Shown here: positions 26,312 to 47,307 of the stretch, in pieces
How positions within the stretch are numbered: position 1 is the stretch's first letter
How the letters are laid out: each line of letters begins with the position of its first letter
IMG/VR virus record: IMGVR_UViG_3300046542_000171
Coordinates: 1 to 47,970 of that record
Strand: one strand, 5' to 3'
Length of the DNA stretch: 47,970 nt
Origin: a virus
Notes under the pieces: generated by a model
What the model was told of the DNA's origin: nothing
What the model saw: only the letters and a program-made list of their open reading frames with translations
Database searches by the model: none
Made by a program: the position numbers and the translations under genes

Positions 26312-26554
26312 TTGTTCGACGCGGTAAAGTTTTTACAGGACAACTTCGGTACTCCTGATGCTGTTGTGGGGATGGCAGCTCAGCACAGACTAGACATTCC
26401 TGTCAGAGATACGGTCAGAAAGTGGTTTGCCCGCGGTGCTATTTCGGGTGAGTGGCTACCTGTGCTTTTGACGATGCTGGAGTTGGAGAATGGAAAAGCA
26501 ATCAGCCTAAAGGGCTATGTATTGGACGGGGGTTATAATGACATCTTCGCATAG
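26312..26554 (+). CDS. Cro-position early protein
   Basis: An 80-aa protein starting at TTG, the only in-frame start before the conserved sequence, with a weak AAGAAG ribosome site. Residues 12-50 (GTPDAVVGMAAQHRLDIPVR, then DTVRKWFARGAISGEWLPVL) read as a helix-turn-helix, so it probably binds DNA as the lytic regulator opposite the repressor. It is the first gene from the rightward promoter. It ends GGYNDIFA, one of thirteen proteins here with a hydrophobic-Phe-X terminus. It overlaps the next gene by 17 bases. Confidence 0.65.
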   Translation: MFDAVKFLQDNFGTPDAVVGMAAQHRLDIPVRDTVRKWFARGAISGEWLPVLLTMLELENGKAISLKGYVLDGGYNDIFA

Positions 26555-26882
26555 TGACGCCGCGCGGCAGATGGAACGTGAATTGAAAATGTGGTGGACG
26601 CTGCTTACAGAAGCCCGGACACTCTACAGACAAGATCCTTTCGACCCCCGGTTACTCGAATACATCGACGAACTGGAAGTCCTGCAAGACATGACCGAGT
26701 GGCCGAAGCTCAAGACGCTTTGCGCGCACACCCTGGCCGCCGGCGCCGAGAAGCTGGCACGCGCCGCCGAGTTGCGTGACCGTCTTATCGCTGCCGGTCT
26801 GGCCGAAATGGACGCGGCTGCCGGTATGGCCCAAATGGGCGCGACTGCCGAAACCGGCACAGCAGCGATCATGACCGGCTGA
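26538..26882 (+). CDS. Early helical protein, unknown
   Basis: A 114-aa protein; GGACGGGGG lies upstream of the ATG chosen. Charged helices cover residues 1-60 (ARQMERELKMWWTLLTEART, then LEYIDELEVLQDMTEWPKLK). An Ala-rich helix (LARAAELRDRLIAAGLAEMD) and a Met/Ala/Gly tail follow. No family is recognised. Its stop and the resolvase ATG overlap by one base (TGATG), so it is expressed with the replication genes. Confidence 0.6.
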   Translation: MTSSHSDAARQMERELKMWWTLLTEARTLYRQDPFDPRLLEYIDELEVLQDMTEWPKLKTLCAHTLAAGAEKLARAAELRDRLIAAGLAEMDAAAGMAQMGATAETGTAAIMTG

Positions 26883-27304
26883 TGATAGAGATCGTGCTGT
26901 TGGGCGCTCCTCGTGGCAAGGAGCGCCCACGAGGAACAAAAGACGGCCACTTCTACACCCCTGAGAAAACCCGCAATTATGAAGGTGCACTGAAGTACGC
27001 CGCTGCGGAAGTGATGGGCTCCAGAGCACCGCTCGACGGCCCGCTGCATGTGGATTTGAGGATTGTCGTGCCGATCGCGCCGTCCTGGCCGAAGAAGCGA
27101 CAAGAGGCTGCCAGAGCGGGCCGGGAATGGCCGACGAAAAAGCCCGACCTCGATAATGTGATGAAAATGCTGGACGCTCTCAATCTCGTTGTATGGATTG
27201 ACGACAGCCAGATCGTGACAACCAACATCGACAAGCGATACGGCGAGAAACCCGGCCTGTGGGTTACAGTTCGCCCGATCGAAGGGGAAGGAATTTTCGG
27301 ATGA
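26882..27304 (+). CDS. rusA: RusA-type Holliday junction resolvase
   Basis: A 140-aa endonuclease that cleaves four-way junctions. Family signatures are GAPRGKERPRGTKDG at the N-terminus and the catalytic region KKPDLDNVMKMLDALN and WIDDSQIV, which provides Asp residues near 89, 91 and 105-106 for metal binding. Length is typical. TGATG and ATGA overlaps connect it to both neighbours. The C-terminus EGEGIFG carries the shared Phe-containing tail. It resolves recombination intermediates before packaging. Confidence 0.92.
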   Translation: MIEIVLLGAPRGKERPRGTKDGHFYTPEKTRNYEGALKYAAAEVMGSRAPLDGPLHVDLRIVVPIAPSWPKKRQEAARAGREWPTKKPDLDNVMKMLDALNLVVWIDDSQIVTTNIDKRYGEKPGLWVTVRPIEGEGIFG

Positions 27305-27879
27305 CACTGCGGATCGAAGAAGGGAAGTTCTACAGACGCCGCGACGGGTTTAAAGCGGGGCCGGTGCGAAAATACGGTGCCGGGTTTTCTGCCGCCTCTA
27401 CGTCCGAACAGGGCGAGGTTCGGCTATACGCGGTTGATGGTAAGCACGGGCTAGAGAACTACATAAGAAATCGTCCGGAGTTCGATCTTATCGCCGAATG
27501 GGACGCGCTGGACGCCTACGAAGAGTATGCGACGGCGCGCGAGAAAGCCAAACGTGACCGGGTTGAAACGCCCGACGTCAAAAAAGAGTTGGCCGACGAA
27601 GCAGTCAGCATCGTCAACGGCGCTCGTCGCAGCATCTACGCCGGGCCAGAGATGGCGTTCGAACGCATTGCCCGGTTCTGGCAAGCGTACTTCCTGAACA
27701 CCGGGCGCGACGTCCATATCACAGCGGCCGACGTTTCACCGATGATGCGATTGATGAAAGAAGCTCGTCTTTGCGAGACGCCAGACCATCGCGACAGCTT
27801 CGTGGATCTCATAGGCTATACACTGACCGGAGCCGAGGTTAGCGGCCTCCAGCCGGTTGACGCTGCGTCTGTTAAGTAG
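27301..27879 (+). CDS. DUF6378-containing early protein
   Basis: A 192-aa protein overlapping the resolvase stop by ATGA. The N-terminal 85 residues hold a small beta domain (IEEGKFYRRRDGFKAGPVRK) as seen in phage proteins that begin with a short SH3-like part. The C-terminal domain (about 110-180: YAGPEMAFERIARFWQAYFL, then MKEARLCETPDHRDSFVDLI) matches DUF6378, a phage family of unknown function. No catalytic role can be assigned. Confidence 0.7.
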   Translation: MTLRIEEGKFYRRRDGFKAGPVRKYGAGFSAASTSEQGEVRLYAVDGKHGLENYIRNRPEFDLIAEWDALDAYEEYATAREKAKRDRVETPDVKKELADEAVSIVNGARRSIYAGPEMAFERIARFWQAYFLNTGRDVHITAADVSPMMRLMKEARLCETPDHRDSFVDLIGYTLTGAEVSGLQPVDAASVK

Positions 27880-27888
27880 GATATTACG

Positions 27889-27898
27889 ACCTACAACG
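27889..27898. promoter_or_regulatory. Single TGTAGGTCGT site (reverse orientation)
   Basis: The bases around 27889-27898 read TGTAGGTCGT on the minus strand, identical to the attP copy at 24121. It lies in the 47-bp gap before the helicase gene. Confidence 0.35.
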
Positions 27899-27959
27899 GC
27901 CGACGCTGTTCCGATCTTCTGCTTTCATGTCTTGCCTGGCTATCCTGAAGGAACTACCG

Positions 27960-29315
27960 TTGCCCACACCTTTCCCAACCCAAATTATCGGCGCGCAATT
28001 CCTGGCAGAGCGGCAATCCGCTCTCCTTGCGGATGAACCGCGTTGCGGCAAGACCGGCGCGGCCATCATGGCGGCCGACTACAATCTCGAGGAAAAGGTT
28101 CTGATCGTGACGACGGCCTCTGGCCGTCCGGTCTGGCGCCGCGCCCTTAGCGCCTGGTCGCCATATGGCCGCCAAGCGCAGGTCATCGCCAAGGGCACCG
28201 ACAAGATCAGCAACAAGGCGGCCTCTGTCATCGTCGGATGGGGCGGTATCACGGACCCGAAAATCCGGTCGCAGCTCATCGGGCGGAAGTGGGATCGTCT
28301 CATTCTCGACGAGGGCCACTATGCCAAGAGTGTAGAGACGAAGCGCACGCAAGCGGCCTATGGCGACTTCACGCTCGGCGGCTCGCTCATCAACGACAGC
28401 ACGGCGCTGACAAGAGCGGCCGACTACAAGGTCTGGTGCCTGACTGGCACGCCGCTCCCGAACAGCCCGGCCGATATCTACCCGATGTTGCGGGCGCTAG
28501 CGCCACATAAGCTGCATGCGTCTAACGACGCCCCTGACGTCACGAAATACCAGGATTTCCTGCACCGCTACTGCGTCGTGCGGATGAAGAAGATTTCGAA
28601 CTTCCGGAAGATCCCCGTCGTTGTCGGCGGTCGGAACCTGGAAGAGCTGCGCGCCCGGATCGGTGACTTCATGTTGCGGCGGACCCAACAGGACGTCGGC
28701 ATCCGGGCGCCGATCTACGAAACGCTGCCGCTCGCCGTCTCGCCCGCCATGCGCCGGGAAGTCGAAGACAAGCTGGACGCCAAGACAGTCTTGGCCGCCG
28801 CAGAGGCCGGAGACACCAAGACGCTCGAAATGGAGCTCGGCCCGCTACGTCGTTTGACGGGCGAGATCAAGGCCCACGCGGTCGTCGCTGCCGTCAAGGA
28901 AGAGTTTGAATGCGGGCTCGACAAGATCGTGCTGGCGTACTGGCACCGCGACGTCGGCCAGGTCCTGAAAGACGGGCTTTCGACGTATGGCGTTGTCTTG
29001 CTTGACGGCAGCAGTAGGCCGACAGCGCGAGGCGAAGCGGAGCAGCGCTTTCTGCACGATCCGTCAATCCGGGTCTTTCTCGGTCAAATCCAAGCGGCAG
29101 GCGAGGCAATCGACCTGTCGTCCGCGGCGAACCTGTTGTTCGTCGAGACATCGTTCACTCCCGCTCAAATGGCGCAAATGTCCAAGCGGGTAACGAACCT
29201 CATGGCAACCCGACAAAGCTTCGTCCGGGTCGCCACACTTGAGGGAAGCATAGACGAAGCACTGCAAGAGATCCTGATGCGGAAATGGTCCGCCATCCGG
29301 GAAGTACTTGCCTAA
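27960..29315 (+). CDS. SNF2-like DNA helicase / ATPase
   Basis: A 451-aa superfamily 2 protein. Motif I is DEPRCGKT (residues 25-32); the N-terminal QIIGAQFLAERQSALLADEP is the SNF2 entry. Motif II is DEGH (near 117), motif III LTGTPLPNSP. The C-terminal RecA domain ends with motif VI-like AQMAQMSKRVTNLMATRQ. These translocases remodel DNA and act in phage replication or recombination. I choose the TTG at 27960 because GAAGGA lies 7 bases upstream and the conserved sequence begins there; the ATG at 27927 has no ribosome site. Confidence 0.85.
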   Translation: MPTPFPTQIIGAQFLAERQSALLADEPRCGKTGAAIMAADYNLEEKVLIVTTASGRPVWRRALSAWSPYGRQAQVIAKGTDKISNKAASVIVGWGGITDPKIRSQLIGRKWDRLILDEGHYAKSVETKRTQAAYGDFTLGGSLINDSTALTRAADYKVWCLTGTPLPNSPADIYPMLRALAPHKLHASNDAPDVTKYQDFLHRYCVVRMKKISNFRKIPVVVGGRNLEELRARIGDFMLRRTQQDVGIRAPIYETLPLAVSPAMRREVEDKLDAKTVLAAAEAGDTKTLEMELGPLRRLTGEIKAHAVVAAVKEEFECGLDKIVLAYWHRDVGQVLKDGLSTYGVVLLDGSSRPTARGEAEQRFLHDPSIRVFLGQIQAAGEAIDLSSAANLLFVETSFTPAQMAQMSKRVTNLMATRQSFVRVATLEGSIDEALQEILMRKWSAIREVLA

Positions 29316-29329: not shown

Positions 29330-30034
29330 ATGACACTGGAAATTAAAGTCTCGGCTCACGTCGAGTTCGGCCCGCTAAAGGAGCAGGTCGAAGAAGCAAT
29401 GGCCGCGCTCGGCTTCACGCGCACGGTGGCGGTGCTTGGCGGGGGCACGCTTTCGACGGCGGAAACTGTGGCCGCCGTTCGGGCGACACCGCCCGACATC
29501 TACAAGGAGGCCGCCGAAACTATCCTGACGAACACGCCGCGCGCAGGCGAGAGCGAAGCGCAGACGGCCGCGCGCCGCGAACGCGGCAAGCCTGCGTCGG
29601 GCCGTGCCCGCCGCACCAAGGAAGAGATCGCCGAGGACGAAGCAGCCGACAAGGCTGACGCCACCAACAGCGGCACAGGGCTCGGCATTAGCTCCGGCGA
29701 AGAACGTGTCGGCCCTGAAGATGACGCGGAGACGCAAGCGCAAGACGAGGCCGACGAACAGGCCGAAGTCGACGCCAACCGTGACGCCGAAGCGCCGCTG
29801 ACGATCGAAGACCTGAAGATGGCAATGTCGGAATACGTGACCAAGTTCGACATGGGCGCGGCGCAGGAAGACGGCGTCAACATCTTCGGCGACGCGCTCG
29901 GCAAGCCGCCCGGCGGCGAGCAATTCTGGAAGATGTCCATCGCCGCGGCTGCCGGCCAGGACACGCTCAAGAAGGCGATCGCCGCATGGAAGGCCGCTGC
30001 TACGGCTGACAAGCGGTACGCCAAGGTCGGCTGA
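29330..30034 (+). CDS. Early protein with acidic linker, unknown
   Basis: A 234-aa protein with AAGGAA before its ATG. Residues 1-70 look folded (SAHVEFGPLKEQVEEAMAAL). About 75-160 are a highly charged Ala/Glu/Asp linker. About 160-234 are helical (TIEDLKMAMSEYVTKFDMGA, then AAGQDTLKKAIAAWKAAATA). It lies between helicase and DUF2800 nuclease, coupled to the latter by TGATG. A role as replication or recombination accessory factor is inferred from position only. Confidence 0.6.
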   Translation: MTLEIKVSAHVEFGPLKEQVEEAMAALGFTRTVAVLGGGTLSTAETVAAVRATPPDIYKEAAETILTNTPRAGESEAQTAARRERGKPASGRARRTKEEIAEDEAADKADATNSGTGLGISSGEERVGPEDDAETQAQDEADEQAEVDANRDAEAPLTIEDLKMAMSEYVTKFDMGAAQEDGVNIFGDALGKPPGGEQFWKMSIAAAAGQDTLKKAIAAWKAAATADKRYAKVG

Positions 30035-31302
30035 TGGTTGACCACGGCTCACGCGATCACGCTACCTGGAGCGCTTCGGCAACGGAGCGCAACTGGAATT
30101 GCTCCGGCGCGCTGGCGATGACGAAAGACTTGCCGGAGACGACCAGCGAAGCCGCCGATTGGGGCACGTGTTGTCACCAAATATCCGAGAAATGCCTTCG
30201 CCAAGGAGTTCAGGCGATCGACTTTCTTGGCACGATAGAGAAGGGTAAGAAGTACGAGTTCGAAGTAGACGAGGAAATGGTCGAAACGGCGCAGATGTAC
30301 GTCGACCATGTCCGTAAGCGGGTGATCGAAGCGGCGCCGAAAAACGTCAATCCGGCCTCCCTCTTGCAGATCGAACAGCGCTTCTCCTTGGCCTCTCTGA
30401 AGCCACCTTTCGAGGCGGGCGGAACCGGCGACGCAGTGATCTATTTTCCATTGGAAAAGCTGATCGAAGTCGTCGACCTGAAGGGTGGCCGCGGCGTCGT
30501 CGTCGAAGCCAAGGGTAACAAGCAGGGCCGAACCTACGGGCTCGGTGCCATGCTGGCGAACCCGCAGCTCGTCGTCGAGCAGATACGAGTGACGATCGTG
30601 CAGCCGCGCGCCGGCCACCAGGACGGTCGGATCAGGCCCGAAACCTTCCACGTTGCGGACCTTATAGAGTGGACTACCGATCTGCTCGAAAAAATGCACC
30701 GGTCGAAAAAGGCAATGATCGACCGGCCCACAATGAACAGCACGGTTTGGGAACGCGAGTACCTGAACGCAGGCGATCATTGCGGGAAGACCTTCTGCAA
30801 GGCGGCGGGTTTCTGCCCGGCACTGGAACGGAAGGCTCTCGACACGGCTGGTGTCTGGTTTGACGACCTCGATCAGCCGCGTCTCTCCAACACGCCCGAC
30901 ATGCTCTCTCCGGAGCGTGCCGCGCAACTGCTCGACGCCGCCGACATGATCGGCGAGTACATCAACGCCGTGCGGGCCTATTGGCACTCACAGGCCGAGA
31001 TGGGCGTCGAGATCCCGAACTATGTGCTGGTCGACAAGATCGGCCGGCGCAAGTGGAAGGCCGACGACAAGGAAATCGTTGCGGCGCTGGAAGGTAAGGG
31101 AATACCACATCAACACCTGTGGCAAGACCCGAAGCTGAAGAGCCCCGCCATGATGGAAAAGACGCTCGGCGCGAAGCGTAAAGCCGAGCTCGCGGACCTG
31201 ATCGAAACGCCCGTCACAGGGACGAATTTGGCCCGCGCCGACAAGACAACGCGGAAGGCGGCCACGCCTTCTGTCAACAAGCATTTTTCTATCCTCGACT
31301 AA
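30034..31302 (+). CDS. DUF2800 protein, Cas4/RecB-like nuclease
   Basis: A 422-aa protein. The N-terminus (SASATERNWNCSGALAMTKD, then EAADWGTCCHQISEKCL) and the middle (GTGDAVIYFPLEKLIEVVDL, then KGGRGVVVEAKGNKQG) follow DUF2800, a PD-(D/E)XK relative of Cas4 and AddB: metal ligands Asp in GTGDAVI and VVDLKGG, and His in CCHQ. A Cys near 45 and a cluster at about 250-265 (HCGKTFCKAAGFCPALE) could hold an iron-sulfur cluster. It is paired with a DUF2815 ssDNA-binding gene downstream, as in many phages. I infer end-processing exonuclease function in recombination. Confidence 0.8.
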   Translation: MVDHGSRDHATWSASATERNWNCSGALAMTKDLPETTSEAADWGTCCHQISEKCLRQGVQAIDFLGTIEKGKKYEFEVDEEMVETAQMYVDHVRKRVIEAAPKNVNPASLLQIEQRFSLASLKPPFEAGGTGDAVIYFPLEKLIEVVDLKGGRGVVVEAKGNKQGRTYGLGAMLANPQLVVEQIRVTIVQPRAGHQDGRIRPETFHVADLIEWTTDLLEKMHRSKKAMIDRPTMNSTVWEREYLNAGDHCGKTFCKAAGFCPALERKALDTAGVWFDDLDQPRLSNTPDMLSPERAAQLLDAADMIGEYINAVRAYWHSQAEMGVEIPNYVLVDKIGRRKWKADDKEIVAALEGKGIPHQHLWQDPKLKSPAMMEKTLGAKRKAELADLIETPVTGTNLARADKTTRKAATPSVNKHFSILD

Positions 31303-31324: not shown

Positions 31325-31942
31325 GTGGCAAGATCCGAAGACGTAAAAACCATCGAACTCCGTTGGGCATTCACCAACGGCCTTTTCGAACTCCAGACGA
31401 CGCAGGCCGGCAAGAAGCAGTGGAACGTCACTGGCCTCTATGCCAAGAGCGCCGATGTCTCCAAGCTGGAAGCTGCAGCCCTGGAAGCGGCCGTTGCCGA
31501 GTGGGGCGACAAGGCCAAGCAGATGATCAAAGACGGCCTGATCCACTCGCCGTTCCTGGACGGCGACGGGCCGCAGGGCAAGTCGAAGAAGACCGGCGAA
31601 CCGCATGCCGGCTTCCCCGGCCATAAGTTCATCCGCTTCATCTCCGGCGAAGAGTACCGCCCGAAGCTGTTCAATCGTCAGCTCCTGCCGATCACCAGCA
31701 AGAACGACTTCAAGTCCGGCGATTACGGCTTTGGTGTCGTGAACGCCTTCACGTGGGAGAACAAGGAGAAGGGCAAGGGCATCTCCTTCGGTATCTCCAT
31801 GATCCAGAAGTCGCGTGATGGCGAAAGCCTTGGCGGCTCCGGCGGCGCGGATCCGGAAAGCTACTTCGAAAAGCTCGAGGACGCAGGAGACGCGCCCGAT
31901 ACCACGAAAAGCGGCGCAGGCGCAGCGGGCCTTTTTTCGTAG
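31325..31942 (+). CDS. ssDNA-binding protein, DUF2815
   Basis: A 205-aa protein with a GTG start (AAAGGAAG upstream). IHSPFLDGDGPQGKSKKTGE, then FIRFISGEEYRPKLFNRQLL and FKSGDYGFGVVNAFTWENKE, match the DUF2815 OB-fold ssDNA-binding family, related in role to T7 gp2.5. The C-terminal 45 residues are acidic and Gly-rich and finish GAAGLFS. As in SSB proteins such a tail would recruit partner enzymes. The stop codon lies inside operator-like repeat C. Confidence 0.82.
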   Translation: MARSEDVKTIELRWAFTNGLFELQTTQAGKKQWNVTGLYAKSADVSKLEAAALEAAVAEWGDKAKQMIKDGLIHSPFLDGDGPQGKSKKTGEPHAGFPGHKFIRFISGEEYRPKLFNRQLLPITSKNDFKSGDYGFGVVNAFTWENKEKGKGISFGISMIQKSRDGESLGGSGGADPESYFEKLEDAGDAPDTTKSGAGAAGLFS

Positions 31943-32017: not shown

Positions 32018-32278
32018 ATGAGTGAACCGACAATCGGCCACAACTCCGTCGCTGGCGATCAGCTCAAATCCTTCGTCGAGCGTATCGAGCGGCTGCAGGA
32101 AGAGAAGCAGACGATCGCCGACGATATCAAGGATGTCTTCGGAGAAGCAAAGGGAATGGGCTTCGACCGCAAGGTCATGAACGAGATGCTGCGCCTTCGA
32201 AAGATGGACCAGATGCAGCGCCAAGAGTGGGAGGCCCTGCGCGACACCTACGGTCACGCGCTCGGTATCTTCGGATGA
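32018..32278 (+). CDS. GapR-like nucleoid protein (DUF2312)
   Basis: An 86-aa protein matching alphaproteobacterial GapR almost throughout: [40 protein letters not shown], then [17 protein letters not shown]. GapR forms a coiled-coil clamp on overtwisted, AT-rich DNA ahead of polymerases and assists topoisomerases. A phage copy could support its own replication or compete with the host protein. It adds the C-terminus ALGIFG. It couples to the exonuclease by ATGA; GAGG lies before the ATG. Confidence 0.88.
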
Positions 32279-32835
32279 AGAACACGATGCTCGACATAGA
32301 GACGTTCGGCACGTCTCCGGGCAGCGTCATCCGGTCAATCGGCGCCGCCACCTTCGAACTCACGGGCGAGATCGGCAAGACGTTCTACGTGAACGTCGAC
32401 AAGCAATCCTGCTTGTCCGCCGGCCTTGTCGTGGACCCGAAGACCGAGCAGTGGTGGGCCGAGCAATCGGCCTCCGCGCAGAAGGCTTTTCTCGTCGATC
32501 CAAAGCCGCTGAAAGAAGCGCTCCAGATGTTCCGGGCGTGGTTTCTGGAGCAGAACGCTCCGACCATCTGGAGCCAAGGCGCCAACTTCGATCCGCCCCT
32601 ACTCGAGGCCGCTTACAAAACGTGCGGCATCGAAGCGCCATGGCGGTTCTACAACGTCCGCGACACCCGCACGGTCTACGACGTCTTCGGCTTCGACACC
32701 CGCGATCTCATGCGGACACGTGTCCACCATAACGCGCTCGACGACACGATCCACCAAGTCGCGCTCGTTGCCGCGGCGATCGGCAAAGGCCGCGCGCCAG
32801 CACAGGCCAAGAAGCACGAAAGCATCTTCGAATGA
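32275..32835 (+). CDS. DEDD 3'-5' exonuclease, Rv2179c-like
   Basis: A 186-aa protein. Catalytic acids: Asp7 and Glu9 in [12 protein letters not shown], Asp near 103 in [14 protein letters not shown], and the final [15 protein letters not shown] (His and Asp, about 151-156), a DEDDh pattern. It matches the phage and mycobacterial exoribonuclease-like family (PF16473); substrate (RNA or DNA) is uncertain. ATGA overlaps join it to both neighbours. It ends KKHESIFE, another of the shared tails. Confidence 0.85.
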
Positions 32836-33059
32836 AGATCGACCAGCTACTCCGCGAGGCCGCCCAAAACGGCCTCGCAGGCTTCACGCTTTATCCAACC
32901 AATGGCGGACGCTGGCAGGCGTCCACGACAGCAGACAGGCTCGGCTGGAGCATCACCGTAGACGACGATCCGGCAACGGCAGTCGTCCGGGCTTTGAGCG
33001 CGTTCGCCATGTCTGAAATGACGACTGACAACGATGACGCGGGAGACATTTTCGGATGA
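32832..33059 (+). CDS. Small early protein, unknown
   Basis: A 75-aa protein. Residues 1-55 are compact (IDQLLREAAQNGLAGFTLYP, then GWSITVDDDPATAVVRALSA), followed by an acidic disordered tail ending DDAGDIFG. It overlaps exonuclease and methyltransferase genes by 4 bases each. No family is recognised. An acidic spacer plus Phe-terminal motif on so small a protein makes it a candidate adaptor between the replication factors. Confidence 0.6.
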   Translation: MKIDQLLREAAQNGLAGFTLYPTNGGRWQASTTADRLGWSITVDDDPATAVVRALSAFAMSEMTTDNDDAGDIFG

Positions 33060-34210
33060 CTGTTACGATATTACAAGGCGATTGCCGCGACGTTCTCAAA
33101 ACCCTACCGCCGGCCTCCGTCCACGCCATAGTTACGGACCCGCCTTACGGGCTTAATTTCATGGGTAAGAAATGGGATTATGACGTGCCGGGGGCCGATG
33201 TCTGGCGCGAATGCTTGCGTGTCTTGAAGCCTGGCGGCCACTTGCTGTCTTTCTTCGGAACGCGGACTTATCATCGCGGCGTCACGCCGATAGAAGACGC
33301 CGGTTTTGAAATCCGCGATCAGATCGGTTGGCTATACGGCTCCGGCTTCCCGAAAAGCAGCAACCAGGCTGACGAGTGGGAAGGTTGGGGCACAGCACTT
33401 AAGCCGGCATGGGAGCCAATCGTTGTCGCGCGCAAGCCGTTGGAAGGGACCGTTCCACAGAACCTAGCCGCTTATCAGGTTGGCGCCCTAAACATTGATG
33501 GGTGTCGCGTGCCAACCGATGAAATTCGCCCACGGGATAGCGTGCAAAAACCGCACGATGAGTTTGGCACCTTCATTGAGAACGGCGGTCGCGCTCGCTC
33601 GACAGGTAGCGGAGCCAACCACGAGATGGGGCGCTGGCCTGCCAACATCATCCACGACGGCAGCGCCGAAGTGCTCGACGCCTTCCCTAGTGCGCCGGGC
33701 CAGATCGCAAAGGCCAGCAGCAGCAGCAGTGACGCTCGCAAGACACAGAACGTCTACGGCGCCATGAAGCGCGGCAGCGATGGCGCCGAACCCCGCGATG
33801 TAGGCGGTTCGGCGGCGCGTTTCTTCTACTGCGCCAAAGCCTCCCGCGCGGACCGGGATGCCGGAATGTCGGCGTTCGAAACTAAAACTGTTGACGTGCT
33901 GGCGGGCCATCGCTCGCGACGCATGGAAGAAATTAAGCGCCCCGATGGCGCGCCCCCAGCGACGGGCAAGAACACCCACCCAACCGTCAAGCCCACCACC
34001 CTGATGCAGTGGCTGTGTCGTCTTGTCACCCCGCCCGGCGGCACGGTGTTGGACCCATTCATGGGCTCCGGCAGCACCGGCCGTGGCGCCGTTATGGAAG
34101 GTTTTGGCTTCGTAGGAATAGAGCTTGACCCGGAATATGCGGCCATCTCACGCGCCCGCATCGCCGCAGTGTCTGGAATGACGAACGACAACGAAGGAAT
34201 TTTCTCATGA
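33056..34210 (+). CDS. DNA methyltransferase, N6-A/N4-C type
   Basis: A 384-aa amino-methyltransferase. Catalytic motif IV DPPYGLNF is at residues 29-36 and the AdoMet motif DPFMGSGSTGRGAVMEGFGF at about 328-347, the beta-class order. A target-recognition insert of about 180 residues lies between them. THPTVKPTTLMQWL precedes the AdoMet loop, as in the family. No restriction partner is nearby, so it is an orphan, probably protecting phage DNA or mimicking host methylation. It ends DNEGIFS. Confidence 0.9.
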   Translation: MTVTILQGDCRDVLKTLPPASVHAIVTDPPYGLNFMGKKWDYDVPGADVWRECLRVLKPGGHLLSFFGTRTYHRGVTPIEDAGFEIRDQIGWLYGSGFPKSSNQADEWEGWGTALKPAWEPIVVARKPLEGTVPQNLAAYQVGALNIDGCRVPTDEIRPRDSVQKPHDEFGTFIENGGRARSTGSGANHEMGRWPANIIHDGSAEVLDAFPSAPGQIAKASSSSSDARKTQNVYGAMKRGSDGAEPRDVGGSAARFFYCAKASRADRDAGMSAFETKTVDVLAGHRSRRMEEIKRPDGAPPATGKNTHPTVKPTTLMQWLCRLVTPPGGTVLDPFMGSGSTGRGAVMEGFGFVGIELDPEYAAISRARIAAVSGMTNDNEGIFS

Positions 34211-34305
34211 GGCTAGGACTGACAAAGGGAATGCTTTTCGGCCTGCCGATCTCGCTGGCGATGTGGGCGGCGATCGGCTTTGTGGCGTGGAGGTTGTTTG
34301 CGTGA
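34207..34305 (+). CDS. 32-aa membrane peptide
   Basis: It starts within the methyltransferase stop (ATGA) and overlaps the next GTG start by 4 bases. One hydrophobic helix (MLFGLPISLAMWAAIGFVAW) has a basic N-terminus (MRLGLTKG). Both couplings and the absence of any gap suggest that it is translated. Function unknown. Confidence 0.5.
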   Translation: MRLGLTKGMLFGLPISLAMWAAIGFVAWRLFA

Positions 34306-34577
34306 GCCAGATAGAAGAATGGAGGCCAGTCGTCGGCTTTGAAAATAGTTACGAAGTATCGAGCTTTGGTCGCGTTCGGTCGTTGGACCGCTCCTGGCCG
34401 CAGCTATCGCGCCACGGGACGACTTACACGTACTCCATGAGAGGGCGCGTTTTGCGCCCCGGCCCCAACGGTATCGGCGTTGCTCTAGCCGAACAGTTTG
34501 GAGTGTCTGACAGTGTGATCTCTCACATTAAGAATGAACGCTTGCACATAGATGTGGACATCAACCATGCGTTGTAG
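34302..34577 (+). pseudogene. NUMOD4-HTH remnant of an HNH endonuclease
   Basis: A 91-aa frame from a GTG. Residues 2-52 are a clear NUMOD4 DNA-binding motif (EEWRPVVGFENSYEVSSFGR, then VRSLDR and GRVLRPG). Residues 56-80 (VALAEQFGVSDSVISHIKNE) are the terminal helix-turn-helix of the same class of homing endonucleases. The HNH catalytic module that normally separates them is missing, apparently by in-frame deletion. So it can bind DNA perhaps but not cut. Its 3' end overlaps the DNA polymerase start. Confidence 0.7.
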
Positions 34578-36771
34578 TGTAGATTTCGAGACTAGAAGTC
34601 CGGTCGATCTGAAAAAGTGCGGCGCGTTCGTCTATTTCGAGCACCAGGAAACAACGGTCCTCATGTGCGCCTACCGGATCGATGACGGCCCGTTGAAGAT
34701 CTGGACCTACGACCAGCCTAAGCCCGATGATCTCTGTGCGGCTATTAGCGCGGGCGCGAAGATTTTTGCATGGAACGCCCAATTCGAAGCGCTCGGTTTC
34801 GACCTGCTCGCAACCCGCCACGGCTGGCCCGCTGTGGCCGACGAGCAGTACGTCGACACGATGGCCGCTGCCGCTGCCATGTCGCTGCCGCGCGCCCTTG
34901 GCGACGCCGCGCAAGCGCTCGGCCTGGACGTCCAGAAAGACCGCGAAGGCATGCGGTTGATCCGCAAGTTCTCCCTGCCGCGCCGCGACGGCGCGTTCAA
35001 CGATCCGTCCGACCATCCCGAAGATTGGGAAAAGTTCAAGGCGTACTGTTTGCGCGACGTCGAAGTCGAAGAGGCGATCGGCAAGCGCATCGTTCCGCTC
35101 TCCGACACCGAGCAAGCCCTGTGGCGGCTCAATTTCCAGATCAACCGGCGCGGTATCCGCATCGATCGCACGTCGGCCCGTTCGGCGCTCGCCATTGCCG
35201 ACAAGGCCAAGAAGAAGCTGGACCGTGACATGCGGCTCGTGACGGGCGGCTACGTGCCGGCCTGCTCGCAACCGGGCAAGCTGGTCGAATGGGTGCAGAG
35301 CCAGGGCGTCGAGCTCTCGTCGGCCGCGAAGGCCGAAATCACCGATCTGCTAGCGTTTGACGATCTGCCGTCGAAGGTTCGCCAGGCCCTCGAGATCCGC
35401 CAGGAAGCCGCCAAGACGTCGGTGTCGAAGCTGCAGGCCATGATCACCATGTCGAACGCAGATGGGCGCGTGCGGGGCACGTCGAACTATCACGCCGCAG
35501 GCACCGGTCGGTTTCAATCATCGGGTGTAAATTTCAATAACATGCCTCGACCTAGACGCGAGTTCGAAGAGGAACATCCGCGGCTCGACGTTCTGTTCGG
35601 CGCCTTCCGCCGCGAGGATCCGGACTGGCTGAAGTTCCTCTATGGCGACAAACTCGGTCGACCGCTGCACCTGATATCGGACGCCATCCGTGGCTTCGTG
35701 TGGGCAGGGCCGGGGCGGGAATTCGTACAGGCCGACTATTCGGGCATCGAAGGTGCCGTTATCGCGTGGCTGTCCGGCGAGGACTGGAAGATCAAGGCGA
35801 TGTTCGACATTATCGCCGACCCGTCCATTCCGGACCTTTACCGGCAGACGGCGGCGTCGATCCTGAACCTGCCGCTGGAAGTCGTCACGAAAAAGCATTG
35901 GTCCCGCCAGTCGGTTGGTAAAGTTTCGGAGCTCGCCCTAGGTTTCGCCGGCGGGGTGTCGGCCTTCTATTCCATGTCCCGAAATTACGGCGTCAATCTC
36001 GACGAGCTCTATCAGCCTGTATGGGACGCCGCCAGCGAGGAACGCCGGGAGAAGGCCGCCAAGCGATACGAAAGCTGCCTGAAGCGCAAGGATAACACGA
36101 CGGTTGTCCTGTCGCGCGAGGCGTGGATCGCCTGCGAGATTATTAAGGTCGGCTGGCGCGCCGCCAATCCGGCCATTACGCAATCATGGTCTGATCTGGA
36201 AGACGCGATCCGTCAGGCCATTCAGCAGCCGGGAACGGTCACGCAGGCCGCTCGCGTTCAATACATCATGGCGCAGGGCTTCCTGTGGGCGCGGTTGCCG
36301 TCCGGGCGCTGCCTGGCTTACGGCTCGCCGCGGCTGAAAGATCAGGTATGGGCGAAGCGCAAGATTGATGGAGCATGGGCCGACGCGGAAGTCATGGACC
36401 GCGAAGAGGCCGAACGCCTCGAGCGCAAGGGCGAATGCCAGATCCAGGGCGCAACGAAGCAGAAGGTTACGGCACTCGGCGTCAATTCGGTCACGCGGAA
36501 GTGGGAGCGCTTCGCGCTCTATGGCGGGCTCGCGCAGGAAAACAACACGCAGGGCACCGCTCGCGATCTGCTCGTCAACGGCATGTGGAAGGCCGAGCAG
36601 AACGGCTATCCGGTTGTCGCGACCGTCTATGACGAAATCCTCGCGGAGGTTCCCTATGGCTTCGGAGACGTCCGCGAATTCGAACGGCTAATTTGCGAGC
36701 TGCCGGATTGGGCAAACGGGCTGCCGCTCACGGCTGGCGGATGGCGAGGAAAACGCTACCGCAAGGAATAG
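34567..36771 (+). CDS. Family A DNA polymerase
   Basis: A 734-aa replicative polymerase. The 3'-5' exonuclease domain has Asp6 and Glu8 in SVDFETRS and Asp in YCLRDVEVEEA (about 164). The polymerase domain has motif A FVQADYSGIEGAVIAWLSG (about 388), motif B around KKHWSRQSVGKVSELALGF (441-460) and motif C ATVYDEILAEV (about 687), where Tyr replaces the usual His. The ATG at 34567 puts DFETRS at the N-terminus as in relatives; an ATG at 34552 is possible. Neither has a strong ribosome site, perhaps because the upstream remnant intruded. Confidence 0.95.
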   Translation: MRCSVDFETRSPVDLKKCGAFVYFEHQETTVLMCAYRIDDGPLKIWTYDQPKPDDLCAAISAGAKIFAWNAQFEALGFDLLATRHGWPAVADEQYVDTMAAAAAMSLPRALGDAAQALGLDVQKDREGMRLIRKFSLPRRDGAFNDPSDHPEDWEKFKAYCLRDVEVEEAIGKRIVPLSDTEQALWRLNFQINRRGIRIDRTSARSALAIADKAKKKLDRDMRLVTGGYVPACSQPGKLVEWVQSQGVELSSAAKAEITDLLAFDDLPSKVRQALEIRQEAAKTSVSKLQAMITMSNADGRVRGTSNYHAAGTGRFQSSGVNFNNMPRPRREFEEEHPRLDVLFGAFRREDPDWLKFLYGDKLGRPLHLISDAIRGFVWAGPGREFVQADYSGIEGAVIAWLSGEDWKIKAMFDIIADPSIPDLYRQTAASILNLPLEVVTKKHWSRQSVGKVSELALGFAGGVSAFYSMSRNYGVNLDELYQPVWDAASEERREKAAKRYESCLKRKDNTTVVLSREAWIACEIIKVGWRAANPAITQSWSDLEDAIRQAIQQPGTVTQAARVQYIMAQGFLWARLPSGRCLAYGSPRLKDQVWAKRKIDGAWADAEVMDREEAERLERKGECQIQGATKQKVTALGVNSVTRKWERFALYGGLAQENNTQGTARDLLVNGMWKAEQNGYPVVATVYDEILAEVPYGFGDVREFERLICELPDWANGLPLTAGGWRGKRYRKE

Positions 36772-38420: not shown

Positions 38421-38642
38421 ATGGCCAAGCGGCCAACTAAAAAGATCATCGCATTCCGGCTGCCGGGCGATCTCATGAAGACCTTGGGTACGAAGGCGAC
38501 GCGGCAGCATGTATCGCGCAACAAGCTCGTCGAATTTATTCTGCGAGACTATTGCGGCCGTACTGACAAGGACCTGCGCGACCTCATCAAAAACCCGCAG
38601 GAGGAAGAGCGCGATGACCAAACCATCGATCTGTTCGCTTGA
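38421..38642 (+). CDS. Ribbon-helix-helix-like regulator
   Basis: A 73-aa protein; AAAAGGAG before the ATG. Residues 8-47 (KIIAFRLPGDLMKTLGTKAT, then VSRNKLVEFILRDYC) give the strand-helix-helix of CopG/Arc-type repressors. It is the first gene after a promoter carrying an operator, so it may regulate itself. An acidic tail ends QTIDLFA: this matches the shared C-terminal tail and also resembles a beta-clamp-binding Q-x-x-D-L-F peptide. Confidence 0.65.
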   Translation: MAKRPTKKIIAFRLPGDLMKTLGTKATRQHVSRNKLVEFILRDYCGRTDKDLRDLIKNPQEEERDDQTIDLFA

Positions 38643-38856
38643 TGATCTGCGCCGCGAGCATCCGACGCTAGGTGCCGCAATCTATGCCTACCAGCCCGGC
38701 GAGGACGTCACGCTGGAGGTTCATACGCCGGACGGCCAGATGTTTTCCTGGAGCGGTTCGACCGAAGCCGACGTCCTCTCGCAGGCATTCCCGCCGGACC
38801 TCGAAACCAACACACCGGCCATCGAGGAACCGACACCGACCAACATTTTCGACTAG
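38614..38856 (+). CDS. Small acidic early protein, unknown
   Basis: An 80-aa protein overlapping the preceding gene by 29 bases; GAGGAAGAG upstream of the ATG. Residues 5-60 look folded (LRREHPTLGAAIYAYQPGED, then VTLEVHTPDGQMFSWSGSTE). The rest is acidic and Pro-rich, ending TPTNIFD. No family is recognised. It shares the hydrophobic-Phe-X terminus with its upstream partner. Confidence 0.6.
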   Translation: MTKPSICSLDDLRREHPTLGAAIYAYQPGEDVTLEVHTPDGQMFSWSGSTEADVLSQAFPPDLETNTPAIEEPTPTNIFD

Positions 38857-41866: not shown

Positions 41867-42303
41867 AGGCGATCGACACAGTTTATCGCGGGCATAAGTT
41901 TCGCTCGCGCTTGGAAGCGCGTTGGGCTGTTTTCTTCGACACCGCGAAGCTGACGTGGACATATGAGGAAGAGGGCTATCAACTCCCTTCTGGTTGGTAT
42001 CTGCCGGACTTTCGGATACTTGAGTTTGACATGTTCATCGAAATAAAACCGGTGGATTTCAACGCGAAAGATAAAACCTCGCGCGAATACATTTTGTGCC
42101 AGGAACTAGCTATCGCAACGGGCAAGGCTGTATGCCTTAACGCGGGCGAGCCTTTTGGCGTGAAGGGTTTCTCTATCACGCCCACGGCCAGCAGCGCGCG
42201 CGCTATCGATTTGCTGAAGGCTCATTTTGAAAATACAAGCTATAGCGCCGCGGCTACCGCTGCCCGGCAAGCGCGCTTTGAACACGGGCATTCAGGTGCG
42301 TGA
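41863..42303 (+). CDS. PD-(D/E)XK nuclease-like protein
   Basis: A 146-aa protein. YRGHKFRSRLEARWAVFFDT (residues 8-27, with Glu), YLPDFRILEFDMFIEIKPVD (about 46-65, with Asp and E-I-K) form the core of a restriction-endonuclease-like site seen in many phage proteins, related to TnsA/VRR-type nucleases. It may process DNA ends or flaps at the origin or during recombination. ATGA and TGATG overlaps join it to the small helical gene and the primase. Confidence 0.75.
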   Translation: MKAIDTVYRGHKFRSRLEARWAVFFDTAKLTWTYEEEGYQLPSGWYLPDFRILEFDMFIEIKPVDFNAKDKTSREYILCQELAIATGKAVCLNAGEPFGVKGFSITPTASSARAIDLLKAHFENTSYSAAATAARQARFEHGHSGA

Positions 42304-44429
42304 TGAACATGGAAAATCAAAATGCTTTCCAGAGGTTCCACGCGCTCGGCTACAAACGCTTTACGCCCGTCGTTCCGCCTGATGCGAAGATTTACGAAAA
42401 GTCGGCCCTTAACCGCCAGCTTGGCAAGGACAAGGACCCGCGCGGCAAATCGGCCGGGGTGAAGAATGGCAACGGCGAGTGGTACGGTTTCGATTTCGTC
42501 CACTACGAGAACGACGAGCTTGACTTGGATCGCTGGCACCGCCTGGGAGCGGGTGTCGGCCTGAAGACGGGTGACGGCCTTGTCATGATTGATGCGGACA
42601 CGACGAACCTGGAGTGGGCCGCAATCATCGTCGAGGAAGTCAAGAAGCTGATCCCGCTTTCATCGGTACGCGTCGGCCAGCATCCGAAGGCCGGCTACAT
42701 CGTCCGCACTGACAAGGACTTCAAATATACCTGCCTGCCCTTCGGCGACAGAAACGATAAGGGCGCCCAGACAGAGCGCGTCGAGATCCTGGCCGAGGGC
42801 AAGTTCTTCGTGGCGCACGGCGTCCACCCGAAGACCAGAAAACCCTACTACTGGCCGAACGGCATTCCTGCCTATGACGATCTACCGTTCGTCTCGAGCG
42901 CCGATCTGCTGGCCCTCATGGAGCGTCTGCGCGCGAGGTTGCCGGCAGCAGCACCAATCACCCGCGAGGGCGGCGGAACGGCCGCTGCCAGCCAAGCCAG
43001 CCTGAAGGGCGATCTCGAAAAGGTCCGCAAGGCGGTACGGGCAACGCCGAATACCCTGTCTAATTTCCCTACCCGCGAGGACTATCGCAACTACGGTTAC
43101 GCGATCAAGGCTGCGCTGCAAGACCACGCGCAAGAGGCGCTCGAGCTATTCGAGGAATGGTGCGAGCAATGGGTAGGACCCGGCGGCGAAATAAACGAGC
43201 CTGACACGATCGCGTCGGATTGGCGCCGCATGAAGCCTCCATATCGCCGCGGCGCGGCATGGCTGTACGAGCTCGCAGAGAAATACTCCGGCGGGGCTTA
43301 TGGCTTGGTCGATGTTTGGTTCGATGTCCTGCCCGAAGACACCACAAGCCTGTTTGATACCGGAGGCCGCGAGGACGCGAAACAGCAGGCCGCCAAGTTC
43401 AAGCTGCTAGACTTCGACGAGGCGGCCGATACGGCAATTACCGACATGGCCCCGCCGCTTATCAAGGGGTTATTGGATAAAGGAACCATGAGCGTTGTTT
43501 ACGGTGACAGCAACGTCGGTAAAACGTTCGTCGCAATGGATATAGCCTATCACATCGCAACGGGGGGCAGATATGCCGGCATGAAGACGGCGCACGCCCT
43601 GGTCGTCTATGTGGCTATGGAGGGCGGGCGCGGCGCACGGCGGCGCCTGGCAGCATTGCGGGACAAGTTCAAGCCTGAACATCGGCCCTTGTTCAAGCTG
43701 TTGTCGCAGCCCGTCAACATGCGCAATCCTGAAGTCGATATGGGCGCTTTCAAGGCGTGCTTGACGGCGATCGGGGCGCCTGTCGGGCTGGTGGTCATCG
43801 ATACCCTGTCGCGCGCCATGGCCGGCGGAGATGAAAATGGTTCTGTCGATATGGGCGCATTCATCAAGAATGTGGACGCCGTGCGCGCTGTCACTCAAGC
43901 GCACATCATGGTCGTGCACCACACGGGCAAGGACAAGGCCAAGGGCGCGCGCGGGCACTCGTCATTGCGTGCGGCGACCGATACCGAGCTAGAGGTGGCT
44001 GAGGGCGTCATCTCGGCCACCAAGCAACGCGATCTCGATAAGGCGTGGTCGTCACCCTTCAGGCTGGAGGTCCGGACGCTTGGCGTGGATGCTGACGGCG
44101 ATCCTGTGACGTCGTGCACAGTGCGGCTTGACAGCGTTACGGCTGTTAGTCGGAGGGAGCCGACGGAAGGCGAGGCGGCGGTTCTGGATGCTATCGCGGT
44201 ACTCTGCGAAACGTCGTCGCGGCCGGATAAGGGCGTAAGGACGAAGGACCTGGAAGCATGGTGCAAGGACAACTTGTCCTCGATGTCGCGCGATACACTG
44301 AACCAACATCTGCGCGGTTTGAGAGGAAAACGGCTAGTCTCACAAGAGACGCGCGGGTATTGGCGTCCGACCGCCGTTTCAAATGGTGAGGATTTGTTAG
44401 GAGATTGTGAGGAAAACGTATTCTCATAG
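42303..44429 (+). CDS. Primase-polymerase / RepA-like helicase
   Basis: A 708-aa replication initiator-type protein. The N-terminal Prim-Pol domain (about 10-210) has catalytic Asp97 and Asp99 (VMIDADTT) and conserved His near 172-175 (FVAHGVHPKT). A PriCT-type linker follows (DYRNYGYAIKAALQDHAQEA). The AAA/RecA-like helicase has Walker A GDSNVGKT (401-408), Walker B LVVIDTLSRA (about 500) and VVHHTGKDKAKG. A C-terminal winged helix may bind DNA. The last codons carry the first origin iteron, and the protein ends EENVFS. The start chosen is the TGATG overlap. Confidence 0.9.
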   Translation: MNMENQNAFQRFHALGYKRFTPVVPPDAKIYEKSALNRQLGKDKDPRGKSAGVKNGNGEWYGFDFVHYENDELDLDRWHRLGAGVGLKTGDGLVMIDADTTNLEWAAIIVEEVKKLIPLSSVRVGQHPKAGYIVRTDKDFKYTCLPFGDRNDKGAQTERVEILAEGKFFVAHGVHPKTRKPYYWPNGIPAYDDLPFVSSADLLALMERLRARLPAAAPITREGGGTAAASQASLKGDLEKVRKAVRATPNTLSNFPTREDYRNYGYAIKAALQDHAQEALELFEEWCEQWVGPGGEINEPDTIASDWRRMKPPYRRGAAWLYELAEKYSGGAYGLVDVWFDVLPEDTTSLFDTGGREDAKQQAAKFKLLDFDEAADTAITDMAPPLIKGLLDKGTMSVVYGDSNVGKTFVAMDIAYHIATGGRYAGMKTAHALVVYVAMEGGRGARRRLAALRDKFKPEHRPLFKLLSQPVNMRNPEVDMGAFKACLTAIGAPVGLVVIDTLSRAMAGGDENGSVDMGAFIKNVDAVRAVTQAHIMVVHHTGKDKAKGARGHSSLRAATDTELEVAEGVISATKQRDLDKAWSSPFRLEVRTLGVDADGDPVTSCTVRLDSVTAVSRREPTEGEAAVLDAIAVLCETSSRPDKGVRTKDLEAWCKDNLSSMSRDTLNQHLRGLRGKRLVSQETRGYWRPTAVSNGEDLLGDCEENVFS

Positions 44430-45176: not shown

Positions 45177-45228
45177 GGTGTTTGTTCCTTGTCGGTTTGT
45201 GATGATTGTCGGTCGTGAAATCAGACAG

Positions 45229-45826: not shown

Positions 45827-45871
45827 TTCGGCGTTCCTTGTTTCGGTGCGTTGTTATGCGGTTGGAGCCCT

Positions 45872-45901: not shown

Positions 45902-45917
45902 GAGGGTCTAATCGACA

Positions 45918-45934
45918 AATGTTTCGGGAACATA
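45918..45934. promoter_or_regulatory. Operator-like inverted repeat before terS
   Basis: AATGTT-TCGGG-AACATA, arms ATGTT/AACAT, in the divergent region about 50 bases before the TTG start. A candidate binding site for a regulator of the small terminase gene. Confidence 0.4.
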
Positions 45935-45985
45935 TTTTTCGTGGTAAAGATTTGAGCCCGATCGGCAATCAGGAGATTATGGAAC

Positions 45986-46447
45986 TTGCCCAAAAAAGGC
46001 GGTACTCTGACACCACAAGAGCGTGTCTTGGCTAAGAACTATGCGGTGACCGGAAATAGGGCCTATTCGGGCCAGATGGCGGGCTTTAGCGATACTTCCG
46101 GCGCAGCGTCGAAAGCGCTCGCCAGGCCGCAGGTGCAGGCCGAGATACGCAAGCAACAGCTCGAATTACTGTTTAGCCAGGTGCTGCCGCTGGCCGTAAA
46201 GGTCCACATGGAGATCATCGGCGACCCGAAAGCCCCTGCAGGGGCGCGCGTCCAGGCCGTAAAGCTGGCCTACGATCGCACGCTAGGCCAGCAGGAAGGC
46301 GCGGAAGGCAAAGAGCCGCACGAGATGACAAGCGAAGAGATCGCCAAGGCGATCGCGCAGCTCGAGCAAGTCGCGTTTGAACGGGCCAAACCGGTCGAAA
46401 ACACGCAAAGTGCGCAAGAGGCGCGCAACGACGACGTATTTTCGTAA
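45986..46447 (+). CDS. terS: Terminase small subunit
   Basis: A 153-aa protein starting at TTG with AGGAG 10 bases upstream. The N-terminal domain (TLTPQERVLAKNYAVTGNRA, then YSGQMAGFSDTSGAASKALA) is the helix-turn-helix that recognises the pac or cos site. The middle is helical (LPLAVKVHMEIIGDPKAPAG) for ring assembly, and the acidic C-terminus, which contacts the large subunit, ends NDDVFS. It is separated from the large subunit by the late promoter, fibres and lysis genes. Confidence 0.82.
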   Translation: MPKKGGTLTPQERVLAKNYAVTGNRAYSGQMAGFSDTSGAASKALARPQVQAEIRKQQLELLFSQVLPLAVKVHMEIIGDPKAPAGARVQAVKLAYDRTLGQQEGAEGKEPHEMTSEEIAKAIAQLEQVAFERAKPVENTQSAQEARNDDVFS

Positions 46448-46665
46448 TGAAATCAACGCGGTTTACTGTATGAGTGATACTGTTGGCGCGCTCGACGAGC
46501 GTCGAGGCGGGTATCGGGGTGACCCGGATTGCGGACCCGGCCCCCGGCACCGGTTCGCGCGCAATCGCGGAAACGGCATCAGCACCGCATAGAAAAATTC
46601 GCCCCAAAAATCGAAGCGGAACGCCTGTCCGGGGCTGTCAGCCTTGTATTCCGACAGTGTTCGTG

Positions 46666-46709
46666 ACAAAAACAAAACGCCCGTCTCGGCCTCTACTCCG
46701 AAACGGGCG
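46666..46709 (-). terminator. Minus-strand intrinsic terminator
   Basis: CGCCCGT/ACGGGCG stem (46678-46684 with 46703-46709), extended by TCGG/CCGA. On the minus strand it is followed by TTTTGTTTTTG. No minus-strand gene lies just upstream, so it may block antisense transcripts. The rest of the gap 46448-46737 holds only a doubtful 40-codon frame at 46470. Confidence 0.6.
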
Positions 46710-46737
46710 CTAACCCCAACCGCAATGTGAGTGCGAT

Positions 46738-47307
46738 ATGGACGACCACTATCTACCACCTGTCGAGTTTCTTCGCGAGTGCTTTTCCTACGACCCGGCG
46801 ACCGGCGATATACGCTGGAAAGCGCGCCCGCCGCATCACTTCTCGCGAGACGCTGATTTTCGGACCTGGAACGCGCAAAACGCCGGGAACTTGGCCTTTC
46901 AGGGTCGCGAAGACGACGGGTACGGTCGCAGTGAGTTCCGCTACGAGGGTAAACGCTACAGGACGCGGTCAAGCCGCGTCGCTTTCAAGCTCATGACTGG
47001 CGAAGAACCGGAGCAGGTCGATCATTGGAACGGTGACGAAACCGACGACAGATGGGAAAACCTGCGCGCGGCCACCAATACCGACAACGCTCGTAACAAG
47101 ATCGGCAAAGCTGGCAAGGTTCTGCCAAAAGGCGTGTTCCTTGAAGGCCGAAAGTTCGTCGCGTCCTTGAACGTCGGCAGTAGGCGGCATCGGATCGGCA
47201 CCTACGACACGCCGGTAGAGGCCCACGCGGCTTATTGCGCGGAGGCGAAGGAGAGGCACGGAGAGTTCTTCAATCCGGGGCCGCACCGGCCCTCTGTTTT
47301 CGATTGA
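46738..47307 (+). CDS. HNH endonuclease with AP2 domain
   Basis: A 189-aa homing-type endonuclease. The N-terminus FLRECFSYDPATGDIRWKAR is typical. The HNH core is QVDHWNGDETDDRWENLRAA (about 97-116). The AP2 DNA-binding domain (GVFLEGRKFVASLNVGSRRH, then IGTYDTPVEAHAAYCAEAKE) occupies about 132-178. It lies beside the terminase gene, where HNH proteins sometimes stimulate packaging cleavage; it may instead be selfish. It ends RPSVFD, one of the shared tails. Confidence 0.85.
   Translation: MDDHYLPPVEFLRECFSYDPATGDIRWKARPPHHFSRDADFRTWNAQNAGNLAFQGREDDGYGRSEFRYEGKRYRTRSSRVAFKLMTGEEPEQVDHWNGDETDDRWENLRAATNTDNARNKIGKAGKVLPKGVFLEGRKFVASLNVGSRRHRIGTYDTPVEAHAAYCAEAKERHGEFFNPGPHRPSVFD

Follow-up and report, generated by a model that had tools for sequence, protein, structure and literature searches.

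The question raised by this locus is why proteins of unrelated families should end in the same few residues. The DNA analyzed is the IMG/VR virus record IMGVR_UViG_3300046542_000171 (47970 bases; this whole stretch is called the window below), a relative of the Rhizobium phage RHph_N65. A first-pass annotation had listed 13 unrelated proteins ending in Ile, Leu or Val, then Phe, one further residue and the stop codon ([ILV]-F-X-stop), and had proposed that these tails dock on one hub that gathers enzymes of DNA metabolism. All 13 ends were read back by translation, and 14 of the 65 predicted window genes carry a tail, the extra case being an open reading frame of 32 amino acids (34207-34305, WRLFA). 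The late genes almost lack such tails, as the annotation had noticed: an [ILVM]F-X-stop end is found in one of 25 genes at 1-23800 versus 13 of 39 early genes at 24200-47970. Residues are numbered here from the C-terminus, with the last one as -1. The peptide is indeed strictly C-terminal, but its Phe sits at -2 and is not the very last residue.

These ends are far more frequent than chance allows. With proteins shorter than 40 amino acids set aside, 12 of the 62 in the window match [ILV]F-X, whereas the internal frequency of [ILV]F predicts 0.34 (binomial P 1.5e-15) and the annotation had roughly estimated less than one; the length cut removes two short matching predictions. Within-protein shuffling of the same proteins (5000 rounds) produced a mean of 0.40 and a maximum of 4 matching ends. 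In 13 relatives, 120 of 816 proteins have the tail compared to a background of 0.62%, a biased rate because tails were already known from part of these relatives when most of them were chosen. The [ILV]F pair at other offsets (-1 to -15) occurs in 0 to 19 of these 816 proteins versus the 120 at -3/-2, and control loci around distant polymerases have the tail in only 14 of 1678 and 11 of 1676 proteins. The homologues also keep it, with 14 of 69 annotated coding sequences tailed in RHph_N65, among them most of the counterparts of tailed window genes. In RHph_N65 the slot of the methyltransferase is filled by an unrelated PAPS-reductase-like protein, which is tailed too. In EBPR siphovirus 2, with a polymerase 55% identical, 11 of 80 genes are tailed, nearly all with VF.

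In alignments of the RusA resolvase, the exonuclease and the gp2.5/Enc34-type single-stranded DNA-binding protein (SSB), the linkers diverge and the end is retained, with two extra residues after LFG in the SSB of EBPR siphovirus 2. Codons for Ile, Val and Phe vary synonymously among tails and all three stop codons are used. Since codons, stop codon and linker vary while the tail is kept, selection acts on the protein. Several tailed ends overlap the start of the next gene (ATGA), which constrains the last codon, so that gene overlap, a regulatory site or composition might be thought to produce the ends at the DNA level. This is extremely improbable given the synonymous codons and the three stop codons, the presence of tailed genes on both strands, the lack of an excess of this size at neighbouring offsets, and control loci that have the same gene module without the tail. 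Thus, the tail is a real, strongly selected, protein-level motif. Gene families were built from our own gene finder and profile matches, so that starts may be wrong but stops are unaffected.

The tail consensus is [GDSN]-[IVLA]-F-[GDAES]-stop. In 435 tails from 59 phages selected for at least three non-SSB tails, a sample that also underlies most of the carrier fractions below, G, D, S or N occupies -4 in about 91% of cases and G, D, A, E or S occupies -1 in about 93%, whereas -3 is divided among Val (41%), Ile (28%), Leu (23%), Ala (7%) and Met (2%). The class [ILV]-F-X-stop seen by the annotation was therefore real but too narrow: Ala at -3 is a whole-phage variant, and the class becomes [ILVA]. 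The 17 residues before the tail have a mean net charge of -1.40 versus 0.17 in untailed proteins. Much the same proteins carry the tail from phage to phage, and tails are absent from the SNF2 helicase (0/54), the repressor (0/45), the polymerase (0/53) and a protein designated F3 (0/55), and rare in the DUF2800 nuclease (2/54) and the integrase (1/47). In a less selected sample that includes tail-poor relatives, the tail is present in 35 of 42 SSBs, 32 of 39 GapR-like proteins, 27 of 31 RusA resolvases and 27 of 30 primases.

Most phages prefer a single residue at -3 (Ile, Val, Ala or Leu) across unrelated tails, which we call the dialect of the phage: RHph_N65 has eight Ile and two Leu, G039 has 12 Val, G016 has seven Ala and two Val, and G043 has four Leu. 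Mixed phages include the window itself (seven Ile, three Val, two Leu) and G031 (four Ile, five Val, one Leu). The SSB stands outside the dialect with Leu at -3 in 47 of 50 tails and Met in three. Concordance at -3 within phages was 146.5 versus a null mean of 83.5 (standard deviation 3.7, maximum 98.0) for 202 tails of 31 phages, and 162.1 versus 84.6 (standard deviation 5.4, maximum 104.0) in a larger set of 243 tails from 59 phages. For the null, residues were permuted within families (5000 permutations for 31 phages, 2000 for 59), and the 31-phage value was computed without SSB tails, tails of late-called families and families with fewer than five tails. Permutation within families keeps the relatedness among phages in place, and a common receptor itself predicts a joint shift of many unrelated tails within one lineage. 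GC content or codon bias was considered as the cause of the dialects and is unsupported; background Ile, Val and Ala use correlates weakly with them (r up to 0.42). The last residue may be a second dialect feature, with Gly in eight of nine ends of G003 and in all six of L411.

A residue that is the same in unrelated proteins of one phage and differs between phages points to a single receptor, common to the tails of a phage and variable from one phage to the next. The common docking site proposed by the annotation is thus strongly supported, and the tailed proteins very probably share a docking code. What, then, reads it? The receptor is probably encoded by the phage, and sequence associations suggest F3 as a candidate, with a chance slightly short of even. 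F3 (29330-30034, plus strand; function unassigned) is encoded beside the DUF2800 nuclease (30034-31302, plus strand; PF10926, E 5e-68; phrog_69 exonuclease), the SSB and the polymerase. The window F3 has no match in Pfam, PHROG or NCBIfam, and none below E 0.001 in a viral fold library. An iterated profile of its C-terminal domain retrieved 215 proteins in 212 loci. Of 203 loci that contain SSB, DUF2800 and 2.5 kb of upstream sequence, 180 have an F3, which in 141 of them lies directly upstream of DUF2800. Distant members match PHROGs of unknown function; iterated profiles may drift in distant phages, but the fixed gene position argues against drift. The AlphaFold model of F3 has a disordered N-terminal half and a helical C-terminal domain (pLDDT >90 at about 140 to 230). 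Its nearest folds are weak matches to the Brd3 ET domain, which was solved with a peptide (Z 4.1), and Gal11 KIX (Z 3.9), but also to a DARPin fusion (Z 4.1) and acyl-CoA-binding proteins (Z 3.4 and 2.0).

Within F3, residue 186, which falls in the segment D181-G191, tracks the Ile dialect. It was the top F3 column of the first association scan (31 phages). Phe at 186 marked phages with a mean Ile fraction of 0.67 versus 0.15 (29 first phages, P 0.00015). In 26 other phages, partly related to the first set, the fractions were 0.83 and 0.10 (P 0.0001, rank 4 of 1401 columns). A kinship mixed model gave p 2.2e-7 for F186. Phages with few tails were left out of both the first scan and this model; in the model these were phages with fewer than three non-SSB tails, and the fragments or near-copies G008, G010, G011, G017, G005, G015, G020 and EBPR5 were removed too. 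In a tree-based test F186 ranked first of 1413 columns in six families (p 1.1e-6; next column 7.1e-4), and its score was matched by one of 300 permutations and one of 300 Brownian simulations, for a family-wise error of about 0.007 with the Ile phenotype. After thinning to 35 phages below 65% mean identity, the Ile fractions were 0.74 and 0.13. The F3 residues W220 and A224 vary with F186, possibly through plain core packing, and ranked 75 and 25 of 1401 in the new set. The idea that F3 itself is an internal mimic of the tail was thought less likely because Val-dialect phages have LI, VI or LL at this site, without VF.

Several observations weigh against F3 as the reader. Five phenotypes were tried in the kinship model, four in the tree-based test and three in the permutation and simulation runs, so the family-wise error of 0.007 has to be multiplied by three to five. 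Structural genes follow the dialect well yet were outside the six-family tree-based tests; in a nearest-neighbour test of dialect TerL gave 0.28 and gene 10605 gave 0.24, with a null of 0.55. Columns of TerL and DUF2800 outscored F186 in the first scan. The Ala dialect, which occurs in few phages, is tracked by D270 and Q320 of DUF2800 (4e-11 and 1e-9) with R544 of the polymerase third (1.6e-6), and the Leu dialect by D216 of DUF2800. Three phages are Ile-rich without Phe at 186 (L513 with Met, all Ile; G041 with Leu, 0.88; G037 with Ile, 0.56), and three others carry Phe186 with Ile fractions of only 0.29 to 0.40 (G007, G035 and L492). Parsimony counts five changes of F186, nine of the Ile dialect and ten of both jointly, so only about four coincide. 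F3 is also poorly conserved with weak best fold matches (Z about 4), L176 is tailed although its positional F3 scores only E 1.1, and G038, G040 and G044 have SSB and polymerase but only 3/93, 2/94 and 1/81 such ends. Because DUF2800 columns track the rarer Ala dialect, F3 as the receptor is a lead rather than a proof. Of the hubs that the annotation had offered (host clamp, phage polymerase or another factor), the evidence points to the last, in the form of F3 and perhaps DUF2800, and disfavours the other two.

The phage family-A DNA polymerase would be the receptor by comparison with T7, in which the acidic tail of gp2.5 has been implicated in contacts with the polymerase and the primase-helicase (in the available parts of PMC5686142). 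DUF2800, gp2.5 and polA form a known module (according to excerpts of PMC8093625), the polymerase itself is never tailed, and Roseobacter phage CRP-821, annotated without a polymerase, has an SSB ending in DDALPF and no shared tails. However, the dialect is scattered over the tree of the polymerases (changes observed versus shuffled for 39 rows: Val 13/13.4, Ile 7/6.6, Ala 3/2.9) and is not shared by nearest polymerase neighbours (P 0.27). Polymerases that are 83% identical serve an Ala phage and a Val phage (G018 and G039), and none of 479 polymerase columns is below 1e-3 for the Ile dialect. The polymerase is thus disfavoured as the variable reader and was rejected as a first choice for setting the dialect, few of its columns following the dialect even though R544 tracks Ala; we consider it an unlikely receptor. 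The polymerase gene of EBPR siphovirus 2 (L004:26691-29828) has an intein-like insertion of about 270 residues in a conserved motif, and the polymerase frame of G016 is also long (1126 amino acids).

Equally unlikely is a receptor from the host, foremost the beta sliding clamp, with dialects following the host. The clamp motif has an end similar to [DSN]-[LMI]-F, and there are two tails with the sequences QLDIFG and QLNIFG. The dialect follows the genome backbone including the structural genes, which usually follow the host, and no clamp was found among that part of the window proteins scanned with Pfam. In the canonical motif Gln is important for affinity and Leu or Met stands at position four (in the parts of PMC11139829 consulted), but among the tails Gln is at background level in the register that the motif needs (16/435 at -6 and 24/435 at -7; background 3.8%), and the Val and Ala dialects do not fit, which disfavours the clamp as the hub. 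No usable clamp motifs were obtained from the DnaN and Y-family polymerases of three hosts. The weaker of two matches to a Y-family polymerase profile in Rhodopseudomonas (L382; the other is L380) ends in HGLFA, like the phage SSB tails, and a search of 397 genomes of one host's order for the SSB returned seven matches, one of them close. Finally, the DNA-binding groove of the SSB could accept its own tail and those of other proteins. In crystals of the Enc34, DUF2815 and T7 SSBs the C-termini lie in the grooves of neighbouring molecules (as described in the accessible text of PMC5686142), and the SSB is nearly universal here with the most constant tail (Leu in 47/50). Nevertheless, none of 160 SSB columns is below 1e-3 for the Ile dialect, and Leu is retained in the SSB when the remaining tails of a phage change, which makes this reading rather improbable.

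With F3 as the candidate reader, the tail would be a C-terminal address on each client protein. The clients would be the SSB, the GapR-like protein, RusA, the exonuclease, the methyltransferase, the primase-helicase, the small terminase, the HNH nuclease and several small proteins, each with a flexible, slightly acidic linker followed by [GDSN]-[IVLA]-F-[small or acidic]-stop. Within a phage, the clients would all dock one at a time into the same hydrophobic pocket, and enzymes of replication, recombination, modification and packaging would thereby be held at the phage DNA. The pocket would differ between phages, shifting all tails of a phage together at -3, and would most likely be on F3 around segment 181-191 and the following helices, with a possible contribution from DUF2800. 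Recruitment by a shared C-terminal peptide is proposed by analogy with T4 and T7. Taken as a whole, with binding, pocket and gathering at DNA, this scheme has in our judgement nearly an even chance. Still more tentatively, the F3 family, common next to DUF2800, gp2.5-type SSB and polymerase, may represent a phage-encoded reader that coordinates replication, recombination, modification and packaging. It would read a C-terminal address code whose dialects are specific to the phage, as a viral counterpart of clamp-based tool belts that serves about ten clients and uses an orthogonal code in every lineage.

In distant phages, gp2.5-type SSBs mostly end in other kinds of acidic-hydrophobic tails, some of which are also shared. 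BPP-1 has DLV, GLV or DLI on DUF2800, the SSB, a methyltransferase and three more proteins, L129 has LV on DUF2800, the SSB, and GapR-like and 75-amino-acid-like proteins, and L020 has SLI on DUF2800 and the SSB. The SNF2 helicase is tailed in the distant L111, L272 and L114. Since DUF2800 and SNF2 are tailed in distant phages, they are likely clients, and the polymerase and F3 are left as the untailed core. In many other loci there is no such sharing. An SSB tail of the P[ILV]TG type occurs mostly together with an F3 end G[AV]xx (both in 17 loci, SSB only in five, F3 only in four, neither in 185).

In the window, the 13 tailed genes listed by the annotation are on the plus strand and most lie between 26312 and 47307. 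The first encodes a small protein (26312-26554, NDIFA) without Pfam or PHROG match, whose family is tailed in 5 of 22 members, followed by the RusA Holliday-junction resolvase (26882-27304, EGIFG; PF05866, E 5e-33; tailed 35/37). The SSB (31325-31942, AGLFS; PF10991, E 1.5e-20, 74 bits versus a cut-off of 26; phrog_112; tailed 50/55) is of the gp2.5/Enc34 type and has solved relatives (4jg2, 4klk, 5odj). It precedes the GapR-like DNA-binding protein (32018-32278, LGIFG; PF10073, E 2e-30; 47/58), the Rv2179c-like 3'-5' exonuclease (32275-32835, ESIFE; PF16473, E 2e-43; 12/12 in its family), a 75-amino-acid protein of unassigned function without Pfam or PHROG match (32832-33059, GDIFG; 44/47) and the DNA N6/N4 methyltransferase (33056-34210, EGIFS; PF01555, E 5e-29; 11/13 in its family). 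Further downstream are a ribbon-helix-helix/HicB-like protein (38421-38642, IDLFA; PF05534, E 6e-4, below the cut-off; Arc-like phrog_582; 24/37) and an 80-amino-acid protein, also of unassigned function and without Pfam or PHROG match (38614-38856, TNIFD; 37/40). The primase-helicase (42300-44429, ENVFS; PF13481 and PriCT_2; 28/29), the small terminase subunit (45986-46447, DDVFS; PF03592, E 5e-4, below the cut-off; phrog_51, E 5e-4; 25/26) and the HNH endonuclease (46738-47307, PSVFD; PF13392, E 1.5e-11), untailed in RHph_N65, complete this region. A late-region protein (13512-14108, DNLFK) has weak endonuclease VII and Arc PHROG matches and is tailed in 15 of 26 family members. The SNF2-type helicase (27960-29315; PF00176), untailed in this clade, and the family-A polymerase (34552-36771; PF00476, phrog_17), which ends in KRYRKE, are also on the plus strand. 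An Nmad5 nucleotide-modification-domain gene (37254-37676) lies on the minus strand between the polymerase and ribbon-helix-helix genes, and the large terminase (6679-8349) and most of its relatives have another conserved aromatic end, GGF.

A search of the open-access literature found no description of tails shared like this and no function for F3, and the tail-sharing system is apparently undescribed. If the proposed reading is correct, it names the wiring of the widespread replication module of DUF2800, gp2.5-type SSB and polymerase, which is also present in Firmicutes phages, and assigns a role to proteins that have none so far. Orphan phage proteins that act at the replication site would then be predictable from a four-residue tail even when homology is lacking, and the natural dialects would be matched tail/reader pairs for coevolution tests and orthogonal recruitment tags. 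With a confirmed reader, peptides could be used to test the old question of how a phage that lacks a sliding clamp of its own brings many DNA enzymes together.

The bacterial SSB ends in DDDIPF, likewise a short acidic-hydrophobic C-terminal peptide with Phe that organizes DNA metabolism. In bacteria, however, a single tailed protein is read by many others, whereas here the tail is on many proteins. The Pro-Phe at the very end that characterizes the bacterial peptide is replaced by Phe at -2 in the phage tails, and Phe at -1 occurs in 14 of 816 proteins. The SSBs of L263 and L273 end in GGLFG followed by DDEIPF or EDDISF, as though a tail of the host type were appended to the phage one, so that phage and host-type peptides coexist. 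The beta-clamp motif also has an aliphatic residue followed by Phe and is sometimes C-terminal (in the sections seen of PMC11139829), but the phage tails lack the Gln, allow Val and Ala at -3 and are strictly C-terminal. As in T7, the SSB is of the gp2.5 type, and in T7 its tail is the contact (PMC5686142, in part). In T7 gp2.5 the Phe is terminal, judging by the title of a paper cited in PMC3997047 and PMC9917605, whereas in the present phages it is followed by one residue and the tail is also found on many other proteins. In T4, the similar and interchangeable hydrophobic/acidic C-termini of gp43, gp55 and gp33 bind the gp45 sliding clamp (in the portion consulted of PMC2988020), which resembles the sharing of one C-terminal peptide by unrelated phage proteins described here. 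Pfam scans of part of the window proteins revealed no clamp profile. Thus, T4 and T7 use the same principle with two or three clients as far as these sources go (three such C-termini are named for T4), whereas the phages analyzed here have about 9 to 15 per phage, on carriers that include nucleases, a resolvase, a methyltransferase and the small terminase, with Phe at -2 and with dialects.

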